Positions 32,068 through 39,605 of a DNA stretch of 42,721 nucleotides are shown piece after piece. Each line of letters starts with the position of its first letter. Within the stretch, counting starts at the first letter, position 1. The notes beneath the pieces were generated by a model. It made no database searches. It saw nothing but the letters and a program-made list of their open reading frames with translations, and was not told the origin of the DNA. The DNA comes from Candidatus Vogelbacteria bacterium (lineage in GTDB: Bacteria; Patescibacteriota; Minisyncoccia; Phycocordibacterales; XYD1-FULL-46-19). The DNA lies in contig CAIPHT010000004.1 in the NCBI GenBank assembly GCA_903864935.1, positions 1 through 42,721 on the forward strand, written 5' to 3'. Position numbers and translations under genes: made by a program.

Positions 32068-32183
32068 AAAGCCCCTTCTTCGCTAAAGCTACGAAGGGCA
32101 AGCTTATTTTGCGAAATCCAACCTGCCCGAAATGCCTTAAGCAGGCGGGCTTCGTAAACCCTAGTAAATAGGGGATTAAATCA

Positions 32184-32228
32184 CCAAAATCCCGCCCTGT
32201 TGACAGGGCGGGATTTTGGGTGTATAAT
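32184..32228 (+). promoter_or_regulatory. 16-bp terminator-like hairpin whose loop begins the -35 box of the next promoter
   Basis: CCAAAATCCCGCCCTG-TTGA-CAGGGCGGGATTTTGG; TTGACA (32200-32205) - 17 nt - TATAAT (32223-32228). Confidence 0.85.
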
Positions 32229-32307
32229 AAAAGATAGAAATGTAGGGGCTTGTCTGCCTCTTGAAATAAGGTTTAAGTAACTCAATTTCTCGGAAAGGAG
32301 AAAAATC
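32223..32307 (+). promoter_or_regulatory. Structured leader, copy D of the TTGAAATA family
   Basis: Stem GGGGC-TTGTCT-GCCTC (32245-32260) followed immediately by TTGAAATA; SD GGAAAGGAG. Confidence 0.72.
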
Positions 32308-32616
32308 ATGGAGACTTTGTTTGGAATAGTCGCCGGGGTTGTCTTATTCGCGTTGTACGACACCGCTCCTGTGCAGAAGGCCTGGCTGTGGTTCCTGTGG
32401 CAACTTAGCCCGAGAATTATCCTGTTCCTCCGCGCGGGATGGGCAGAGAAAATTGGAGAGATCGAAGGGGACATCATGGGCGGCTATCTCTTGATGGGTC
32501 TCACTCCCATCAGCAGCAAAGAAGGTAAGGAGTTTTCAAACACCTTCAGGGAGCTGAAGGTCTACCGCGAAAGGAAACTCGAACACCTCCGCTGGAAGCT
32601 GGAGGTGACACGCTAA
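32308..32616 (+). CDS. Small hypothetical membrane-associated protein (ORFan)
   Basis: 102 aa; N-terminal hydrophobic segment; strong SD; own promoter. Confidence 0.7.
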   Translation: METLFGIVAGVVLFALYDTAPVQKAWLWFLWQLSPRIILFLRAGWAEKIGEIEGDIMGGYLLMGLTPISSKEGKEFSNTFRELKVYRERKLEHLRWKLEVTR

Positions 32617-32621
32617 TCTCA

Positions 32622-32680
32622 ACCCGTCCCGACTTAAGCAGGTCAGAAACCTGCCTAGGTCGAGGGCGGGTTTTCTGATT
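32622..32680 (+). terminator. Terminator-like hairpin
   Basis: ACCCGTCCCGACTTAAGCAGG...CCTGCCTAGGTCGAGGGCGGGTTTTCTG. Confidence 0.65.
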
Positions 32681-32698
32681 CAAAAAATTTACCAATAT

Positions 32699-33086
32699 AA
32701 AATGTTACTCTTTTAGACGGTCGTCAAAAATGGTAACATTTTCAAATCAAAATTTATTAACACCAGTGACGGTCGTCTGAAAGTGTAATATTTTTTGATA
32801 GTAATCTGGAAGCTGTAATTTGGAAGCCGAGCTCCCAAAACGGGGGAGCGTGTGTTGTAATTATAAGCCGGTAACACTCGTGACGGTCGTCAGCAATGTT
32901 ACCTTTTTGCCTGCAAGTTAAAACTTATGCCACTAACGTGAGATTTTTTAGTGCCTGGTTTTTTACTGAACAAAATTTACAATTGTAAAAAATGTTCAGT
33001 GATTTTTGTTTCTAACTATAATCTAACGACCGCATCAAAATAGTTAGTCTTAACAAAATATGGACGGCCGTCTGAGGGATGTTAAG
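32699..33086. repeat. Array of nested palindromes with core GACGG(T/C)CGTC (4 clear copies plus 1 degenerate inverted copy) and additional palindromes
   Basis: Cores at 32716-32725, 32768-32777, 32882-32891, 33063-33072; degenerate AACGACCGCA at 33025-33034; each centred between inverted arms. Confidence 0.85.
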
Positions 33087-33257
33087 AAGAATTTCTCGAG
33101 CTCCCTAGACGAAATTTAGGTGATGTGGTAGAACTGGAGTTAGATTGGGTCTGGTGCCTGATCGTTGAAATCGGACAAAGATGGGCTAGGGCTCGTCTGA
33201 CTCCACAAAAGACTCTTTCTAGGGAAAGAGGGGGCACTCAAGCCCAAAGGAGCGAAG

Positions 33258-34241
33258 ATGCCAAACGAAGATAGTCGGTTGATGAAAAGGCTCAAGGAGA
33301 CGAGGAATTTCTCACTTCTCCATAGTCTTTCGAACCAAGGTGTATTCGAGCGACGAAAGGTCATCGAGGACATCATCTCCACCACCATGACTCCCTGCTT
33401 TGAATCGGAGGAGGTGAAGTACTTCGAGGGAGAACTACTGGAGTACTTGGAGTTGTATTCCTGTGCCCTGATGGACCTTGGGATGAGCCAGCTTGACTAC
33501 GAACGCGAGACTTACCGCTTTGCCTGGTCGAGGTACCAGACAATCTCTGTTCATCTTTCGACAACATCAGAAGTGCTCAAGAGGCTCATCTCAGACATCG
33601 TTCACTGGTGGTTCGAGACTCCAACTCTTGACGAGGCAATGGAAATCTTTGACTTTCTCTCCGATGAGGCAGACAGACTTGGCTTCGATGATGTCATGGC
33701 CCGTGAGTTTCGTCGCGAAGAACACGATGCAATTTTTACCCTTGTCCTCCACAAACTGAGTGCCGCCATGGAAACCTTGGGCAAGGACAGACTCTGGGAG
33801 AAAGCCCCTCGGCTGACACAGGTGATTTCCGCTCGCTGGCATCGGATGATTGGCCCCAAGGCGGCAATCTTTCTCTCCCGGGTCCTTCAGAGCTTCGAGG
33901 GCGAGATGTCTGTGGCAGAAGAGGTGACGGTCATTCATACGGCCACTCAGGTTTACGAACTGGGCGACCTGGTTCGGCAAGCCATCGAAGTCCTGAGGGG
34001 TAATCGAACAACCGTCAGTCAATTCGAATTGGGTATTGGCGAAGTCAACCTTGCGGGGCAATATGCGGTCGTCCAGGTGACACTAGAAGACAGTGACCCG
34101 CGCTTCGATGATCACCTTTCTCTTTTGAGCACGGTCGCGACCCTTCTTAGGAACGAGGGAGACGACTTGGATTGCCACAGGTTAAGGGTTTCCGTTGTCT
34201 GTGGAGAACATCGTGCCGAAGGCTCCGTCCTGCCTCTCTAG
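33258..34241 (+). CDS. Hypothetical protein, mostly alpha-helical (ORFan)
   Basis: 327 aa; SD-like AAAGGAGCGAAG before the ATG; no recognised domain. Confidence 0.75.
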   Translation: MPNEDSRLMKRLKETRNFSLLHSLSNQGVFERRKVIEDIISTTMTPCFESEEVKYFEGELLEYLELYSCALMDLGMSQLDYERETYRFAWSRYQTISVHLSTTSEVLKRLISDIVHWWFETPTLDEAMEIFDFLSDEADRLGFDDVMAREFRREEHDAIFTLVLHKLSAAMETLGKDRLWEKAPRLTQVISARWHRMIGPKAAIFLSRVLQSFEGEMSVAEEVTVIHTATQVYELGDLVRQAIEVLRGNRTTVSQFELGIGEVNLAGQYAVVQVTLEDSDPRFDDHLSLLSTVATLLRNEGDDLDCHRLRVSVVCGEHRAEGSVLPL

Positions 34242-34388
34242 TCCGTGAACCATCACGTTCAGCTTACAGAGGACTTGCCCTTCATGTTTTACCCGCTATT
34301 CGGGACAGCATCCGCTGTTTTAGGATGGCGGGTGTTTTGTTTATAAAAAACTTTTTGATTTTAATTTACGATAAGCTATACTCACCAT

Positions 34389-38530: not shown

Positions 38531-39043
38531 ATGGTCTTAACGCCTCATTCCATCGCCGGTGCGGCCATCGCTTCTTTCTTCAAACTTAATCCTTTCACCG
38601 CCTTTTTTGCTGGCTTCCTCAGTCATTTTTTTCTTGATGCTGTACCACACTGGGATTATAAACTTAAGTCCGAATATAAAGATTTAGAGAATCCGATGAA
38701 CGGCGATCTTATTATCGGTCGAGACTTTTATTTTGATTTGGTAAAAATCGGCTTTGACGCGCTTCTTGGTCTGTCCCTGGCCGTCTTTTTCTTTAATTTT
38801 GGATTAGGAGTTTCTCTTGAGATCGTGCTTGCCGGAGTTATTGGAGCCCTGGCGCCTGATGCGTTACAATTTGTCTATACCAAGTGGCGCAAAGAGCCCT
38901 TAATCTCTTTGCAAAGAACTCATCTTCTTTTTATCAATTTCTTTCAAAAGAAAATCGAGAGTCCTTTTTGGGGTCTCTCGATGTATTGCTTTGTTGTCGT
39001 TCTTTTTCTCTTTTTGGGGAGTTTGGGTGTCTTTAGTTTGTAA
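38531..39043 (+). CDS. Integral membrane protein, possibly YdjM-like metal-dependent hydrolase family
   Basis: LTPHSIAGAAIASF...FLSHFFLDAVPHWDY motif; multiple TMs. Confidence 0.6.
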   Translation: MVLTPHSIAGAAIASFFKLNPFTAFFAGFLSHFFLDAVPHWDYKLKSEYKDLENPMNGDLIIGRDFYFDLVKIGFDALLGLSLAVFFFNFGLGVSLEIVLAGVIGALAPDALQFVYTKWRKEPLISLQRTHLLFINFFQKKIESPFWGLSMYCFVVVLFLFLGSLGVFSL

Positions 39044-39605
39044 GAAGATCGTCAACTTTACCCACCATACCAGTAACGTCACCTTCAATACCCGTAACTT
39101 CACCCTCGAGACCTGAAGCATTGCCCGATAAGTTGGTGGTATTGCCTCTAAGTCTAGAGATATCCCCTGATAAGTTTGTAACGTTGCCGGAGATATTGGT
39201 GACATCACCTTGGATACTTGAGACATCGCCAATTAGGTCGCTAACATTGCCGCGAAGTTTGGTCGCATCGCCGCGAATATTGGTCACTTCGCCTCGCAAA
39301 TTGCTCATATCACCATAGAGGCCTGAGACGTCACCGGAGATATTAGTTACATCTCCGGTGAGATGTGTAACATTACCTCGAATGTTAGAGACATCCCCTT
39401 TGATATTAGAGACGGTGCCGAAGATGCCCGCAATGTTACCGCTAATATTACTCGCATTGCCGGTAATTTTGTGGATAGTCACGTCGCCATAAATTTTAGA
39501 GACATCGCCTCGGAGGTTGGCAAAGTCGCCCCAGATGGCTGGGTGGGGGTTCTCAATATTCTCAGTATTTTCTTTTATTTTTGGATTGATGCGTTGAAGT
39601 GTCAT
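39033..39605 (-). CDS. Heptad-repeat protein G-(D/N)-(V/A/I)-(S/T)-x-(I/L)-x
   Basis: About 20 consecutive 7-residue units, e.g. GDVTNISGDVSGLYGDMSNLRGEVTNIRGDATKLRGNVSDLIGDVSSIQGDVTNISGN. Confidence 0.8.
   Translation of the reverse strand: MTLQRINPKIKENTENIENPHPAIWGDFANLRGDVSKIYGDVTIHKITGNASNISGNIAGIFGTVSNIKGDVSNIRGNVTHLTGDVTNISGDVSGLYGDMSNLRGEVTNIRGDATKLRGNVSDLIGDVSSIQGDVTNISGNVTNLSGDISRLRGNTTNLSGNASGLEGEVTGIEGDVTGMVGKVDDLLTN

Follow-up and report, generated by a model that had tools for sequence, protein, structure and literature searches.

The palindrome array at positions 32,699-33,086 of the window (the whole 42,721-nt stretch of Candidatus Vogelbacteria DNA analysed here) is probably made up of solitary, non-autonomous copies of sites from a gene-plus-palindrome element of Patescibacteria, in which the copy upstream of the gene is a putative autorepressor site. 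The autonomous form of the element would be about 600 bp long and would consist of a palindrome, a single gene for a 160-190-aa protein with a winged helix and a Cas2-like domain (PaaX_M), and a second palindrome.

The five palindromes described in the earlier note (P1-P5) were all found where they had been placed when the window was re-read, and each consists of a core and paired arms that are conserved as a whole unit, as had been proposed. A sixth palindrome had been overlooked. The features of the island that holds the array are as follows (a slash marks the centre of a palindrome).

32068-34388, no strand assigned: island holding the array, between glmS and rsmI, 2,321 nt
32308-32616, plus strand: orphan ORF of the island, 102 aa, followed by a terminator-like hairpin (about 32622-32676)
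about 32682-32708, plus strand: degenerate family B copy overlapping P1, AAAAAATTTACCAATATAAAATGTTAC, a direct repeat with the B palindrome, recognised by eye
32699-32742, plus strand: P1, family A palindrome, core GACGGTCGTC
32755-32790, plus strand: P2, family A palindrome
32870-32903, plus strand: P3, family A palindrome
32965-33000, plus strand: sixth palindrome, family B, ACTGAACAAAATTTACAA/TTGTAAAAAATGTTCAGT, core TTTACAA/TTGTAAA
33012-33047, minus strand: P5, family C palindrome, CTAACTATAATCTAACGA/CCGCATCAAAATAGTTAG
33049-33086, plus strand: P4, family A palindrome, core GACGGCCGTC
33258-34241, plus strand: island ORF, 327 aa, no family above threshold

The array itself has no coding potential, as had been stated, but this does not hold for the surrounding island with its two ORFs. 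Arms pair without gaps in P1, P3 and P4. Those of P2 match up only when shifted by one base (unshifted, 9 of 18 positions pair), and the core of P5 is inverted and degenerate. The arms of P1 are partly common to the degenerate family B copy on its left. Within the window, the core with up to two mismatches has 60 matches, compared with 34.6 ± 7.9 expected, and none of 100 shuffles reached 60. The palindromes are real and go beyond chance. Solitary copies of three families have accumulated in the cluster, with P1-P4 in family A, the palindrome at 32965-33000 in family B and P5 in family C. Genes of all three families are encoded elsewhere in the genome and none lies in the array. The suggestion of a centromere-like region does not survive this result, given that the six palindromes divide into three families, every one of which is linked to its own gene elsewhere, and that the island is missing in a genome of the same genus.

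The genome-wide search for the core that the earlier note had called for identified 22 distinct exact sites in the 825-kb genome, spread over seven contigs; the reversed control pattern has none. All but one of the 22 lie within paired arms, the exception (C17:83816, contig and position) having the appearance of a chance match. The solitary sites are nearly all intergenic, with several in convergent gaps or only 13-26 nt beyond a stop codon. None occurs in a divergent gap, though 50 of the 249 long gaps are divergent. P3 is identical to a copy at C18:25019 over 40 of 40 positions and 95% identical to one at C6:5205, with unrelated flanks. Similarly, C6:6008 matches the gene-flanking copy C6:69941 at 39 of 39 positions, again with unrelated flanks, and in both identical pairs the identity extends to spacers that vary among other copies. 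P2 is similar to the solitary copy C18:24875 and to a palindrome on the downstream side of the PaaX/Cas2-like gene C15:41658, and the P5-P4 tandem recurs at C6:6490/6528 (83% identity over 117 nt, including the B copy). The solitary copies behave like REP elements in that they are intergenic and have been copied to unrelated sites. Among themselves, the family A genes, three in number, share only 46-53% identity; thus, recent copying is seen for the palindromes only, and not for the genes.

At three places in the genome a pair of palindromes about 600 nt apart encloses one minus-strand gene. The encoded proteins match PaaX_M (PF20803), the Cas2-like middle domain of PaaX, with 53, 49.5 and 24.9 bits (Pfam cut-off 24), and a winged helix precedes this domain. 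One of the three genes is frameshifted. A search with a protein alignment identified six such genes in the genome of the window and others in 20 of 60 relatives, and most PaaX_M genes, both here and in the relatives, lie between two palindromes whose sequence is particular to the gene. The gene at C5:45064 is enclosed by a GGTAACATTTTTTACAA/TTGTAAAAAATGTTACC pair, which is family B, as in the overlooked palindrome of the window. The gene at C17:65845 is enclosed by a CTAACTATATTCTCACGA/CCGTGAAAAAATAGTTAG pair, which is family C, as P5. The predicted structure (pLDDT 86.6) has a winged helix ahead of a Cas2-like fold, and E. coli W PaaX (E 3.8e-5), Rv0674 and a number of Cas2 proteins are its best matches in the PDB. 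Sequence searches of solved structures were uninformative with a single protein; with the alignment they returned winged-helix regulators and Cas2.

Like PaaX (E. coli W PaaX, PDB 8a39; TIGR02277), these proteins combine a winged helix with the Cas2-like domain PF20803 and have a palindrome at the promoter. They differ from it in length (about 170-190 aa, compared with the 305-residue PaaX chain in the PDB) and in having a second palindrome behind the gene as well as solitary copies elsewhere. The score against the phenylacetate repressor equivalog (TIGR02277) is 20.4 bits, far from the cut-off of 264.6. With CRISPR Cas2 they share a Cas2-like domain with an invariant Asp and a Q-S-V-W/F stretch, but here the domain is fused to a winged helix and there is no repeat-spacer array. 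The Cas2 equivalog gave 18.5-18.9 bits (cut-off 24.5). No Cas1 was identified in the genome, and a CRISPR reading is therefore rejected. The earlier view that the array looks like neither CRISPR nor iterons nor attC was correct. A viral origin was also considered and set aside, as a scan of viral contigs found no relative and PHROGs gave only weak regulator matches.

The arrangement is general across Patescibacteria. A scan of 85,462 species genomes yielded 151 relatives, of which 80 were kept. Nearly all of these carry Patescibacteria names (e.g., Jorgensenbacteria, Nomurabacteria, Zambryskibacteria, Taylorbacteria), and one record is labelled Burkholderiales. Among genes with enough flanking sequence, and at a palindrome score of at least 9, palindromes are present on both sides of 49 of the 80 genes, compared with 4 of 269 control genes taken from these loci. 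A palindrome on one side only was found for 23 of the 80 genes and 63 of the 269 controls, and 8 of the 80 genes lack a palindrome at this threshold. After thinning to <60% protein identity, 24 of 33 genes are bracketed on both sides, and in a partly overlapping set of relatives the value is 23 of 35, with a background of 5.3% per flank. The cognate palindrome also occurs as one solitary copy in genome G010 and as two in the partly sampled genome G012. For pairs whose two palindromes resemble each other, to which this comparison was limited, the distance between left and right palindromes is 0.15 within one gene and 0.56 between genes. In the same set the palindrome distance tracks the protein distance (Mantel r 0.43, 0 of 2000 permutations), a correlation that is confounded by species relatedness.

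The palindromes are strongly self-complementary at distances of 3-7 nt and of 11-17 nt from their centre, with a dip between them (8-10 nt) and a fall to background by about 22 nt; because the profile was built from windows chosen for palindromicity, only its internal dips are informative. The half-site over all families is TNNNACANNNTNYGCNA, and 97% have C at position 3. The arrangement of two blocks per half, about one helical turn apart, is more readily explained by a protein multimer on double-stranded DNA than by a hairpin. Accordingly, the part of the earlier proposal of a multi-site operator that stands is its physical core, a site for a multimeric DNA-binding protein; a single local operator is not supported, since the palindromes belong to three families with genes elsewhere. 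The complementarity of a hairpin should be even, and the dip thus disfavours tandem RNA hairpins or terminators under selection at the transcript level, the other structural suggestion. P1, P3 and the B copy do fold at -11 to -14 kcal/mol, but P2, P4 and P5 are predicted to fold only weakly, the centre pair is often mispaired, several copies lie in convergent gaps, and the upstream copies precede the start of transcription. Rfam and tRNA scans found nothing. We consider selection on RNA hairpins to be highly improbable.

The position of the upstream palindrome relative to the gene is constrained. In 31 of 63 genes a -10 box lies 22-24 or 31-33 nt gene-ward of the palindrome centre, compared with 6% in shifted controls; both offsets were picked from the same data, so that the weight rests on the shifted and downstream controls. 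The start codon is mostly 35-38 or 44-49 nt from the centre. When the upstream palindrome is read away from the gene, only 4 of 63 have such a box. Downstream palindromes have it in 0 of 58 cases reading outward and 3 of 58 reading inward, and solitary copies in the genome of the window have it in 2 of 62 (background 2%). In the thinned set the box accompanies 10 of 28 palindromes on the upstream side and none of 28 on the downstream side. The fixed offset places the upstream copy on the gene's own promoter. Thus, to judge by this geometry, autorepression through the upstream copy is likely. By the same geometry, neither the downstream nor the solitary copies are operators of the kind seen upstream.

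These results bear on the simplest alternative, that the PaaX-like protein does nothing but repress transcription and that the solitary palindromes are operators of other genes in its regulon. The protein is nearest to PaaX, the upstream palindromes sit on the promoter of their gene at a constant spacing, and some copies on contig C6 are located directly upstream of a TTGACA-like box. Such a regulon, however, would not account for the near absence of -10 boxes at downstream and solitary copies, for solitary copies placed just past stop codons or in convergent gaps with none in a divergent gap, or for identity between copies even in unconserved spacers, and a second palindrome after the stop codon would be superfluous. 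We regard a plain regulator with its regulon as unlikely, though it deserves some weight.

Comparison with a genome of the same genus (G001; RsmI 89% identical) indicates that the units are gained or lost, a question that the earlier note had also raised. The exact core is absent from G001 genome-wide. Its glmS-rsmI gap is about 37 nt long, compared with the 2,321 nt that hold the array here. Also missing at the matching loci of G001 are the gene units on C5 and C17 and the solitary copies C15:7510, C16 and C18:24875. Presence and absence at matching loci of related genomes is one of the patterns by which transposable elements are recognised, and it was found in this comparison. Target-site duplications and junctions are unreadable because the intergenic DNA of the two same-genus genomes is too diverged.

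In another alternative, the palindromes would be recombination sites like those of integrons, separating small-ORF cassettes and acting as exchange points. Like attC, variable palindromes do occur between small gene cassettes, namely between small ORFs with common leaders and terminators (C6:4.7-6.5 kb, C15:45.7-47.2 kb, C4 and C16), and the cassettes are unlike those of G001 at the same locus. The palindromes differ from attC in their symmetric centre and in lacking an R-box consensus: the half-site table reads TNNNACA..GCNA, and there is no common GTTRRRY arm. Nor was an integron integrase identified, the better of two tyrosine recombinases scoring 116 bits against TIGR02249 (cut-off 265). 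Many palindromes, such as that at the ligA/rluB junction, are not between cassettes, and palindromes and cassettes may both simply collect in gaps where insertions are tolerated. An integron-like role seems rather improbable.

In its layout the system resembles REP/RAYT, REPINs and BIMEs (PMC2817692, PMC3116915), with a small palindrome-flanked gene, dispersed solitary intergenic copies and mosaic clusters. The linked protein is a different one, having a winged helix and a Cas2-like domain (PF20803) where RAYTs are Y1 HUH tyrosine transposases (PF01797). The palindrome has a layout for duplex binding and a CG-rich centre, unlike REPs, and copy number is low, about 3-22, compared with the usual >100 copies of REPs (PMC2817692). 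The system is thus a REP-like layout with an unrelated protein. Seven Y1_Tnp genes are encoded in the genome, one of which matches the model for REP-associated tyrosine transposases below its cut-off, and a REP/RAYT system is therefore present. This, together with the REP-like locations and copy number, could suggest that the palindromes are classical REP elements mobilised by the RAYT transposases of the genome. The hairpins of the RAYT genes examined, however, are different (e.g., AAAATGTCCAACATC..GATGTTGGACATTTT on both sides), and no family A, B or D site occurs in these loci; such sites bracket the PaaX_M genes. With these differing hairpins, and with Rfam empty, no match to a known transposon or att family emerged. 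Classical REP elements are a very improbable explanation.

In the reading that we prefer, that of a gene-plus-palindrome element with solitary copies, a multimer of the protein would bind the palindrome as duplex DNA and, on the upstream copy, repress its own promoter. The downstream and solitary copies would serve as REP-like element ends, and their spread may be aided by the protein itself or by host machinery acting on the bound site. That the winged-helix/Cas2-like protein itself moves the elements, which would define a minimal class of mobile element with a Cas2-like protein as its sole protein and palindromic ends, is a speculative extension to which we give limited credence. If it does, the functions of Cas2-like domains would extend to DNA mobility beyond CRISPR, and the elements would be a present-day relative of the kind of system that may have supplied Cas2 and the palindromic repeats of CRISPR. 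A whole bacterial branch seems to carry a selfish-looking gene-plus-palindrome system that was previously undescribed. No paper linking PaaX with Cas2 or Parcubacteria, or REP palindromes with the candidate phyla radiation, was found in a literature search whose coverage excluded most subscription journals and all preprints. Orphan proteins annotated only as PaaX-like or Cas2-like in many Patescibacteria gain a testable DNA target in the form of a matching site on both sides and scattered copies. The system also represents a second, independent protein fold tied to REP-like palindromes, beside classical RAYT/REP pairs in one genome.

Several other features of these genomes were recorded. At L012 1119-1631 (C6:137119-137631) a PaaX/Cas2-like gene is frameshifted while both palindromes are intact. 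At three loci (L126 4409-4966, minus strand; L148 4558-5079, minus strand; L097 606-1184, plus strand) a second, more distant winged-helix/Cas2-like gene adjoins the first and has a palindrome of another sequence (AACAAGTATTT..), as though one unit had inserted beside another. Three copies in G010 (L059 137 and 737, and L219 at about 210) have a 16-nt half core in common, but their outer arms differ, and every copy is perfectly self-complementary out to 27-28 nt. Seven RAYT-like genes occur in the one 825-kb genome (L191, L195 and L196 on C17, and other Y1_Tnp loci), and at least three have matching hairpins of their own on either side.

Small orphan ORFs also occur in arrays in which palindromes separate the ORFs and the leaders and terminators are nearly identical. 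Such arrays were identified at L008 900-3100 (C6:4400-6600), L015 5250-6750, window 32308-34241 and C16:13550-14260; at the C16 locus G001 carries a different cassette. Also present is a second dispersed repeat, with about 20 copies of GC-rich palindromes (e.g., CCCCCGCCAGACCTCAAGTG/AGCCCGAGGTCTGGCGGGGG and GAAGTCCAACTTCAAGTG/AGCCCGAAGTTGGACTTC) in which the stems are interchangeable around an asymmetric centre that stays constant, at C5:56181, C6:71382, C16:13515, C17:82604, C18:12620 and other sites. On the minus strand of the window, a 190-aa ORF (39033-39605) consists of short repeats of the GDVTNISGDVSxL type and overlaps the start of an opposite-strand uppP-like ORF, and a 155-aa ORF (16695-17162) is SET-domain-like by eye (FNHSCRPNAE).
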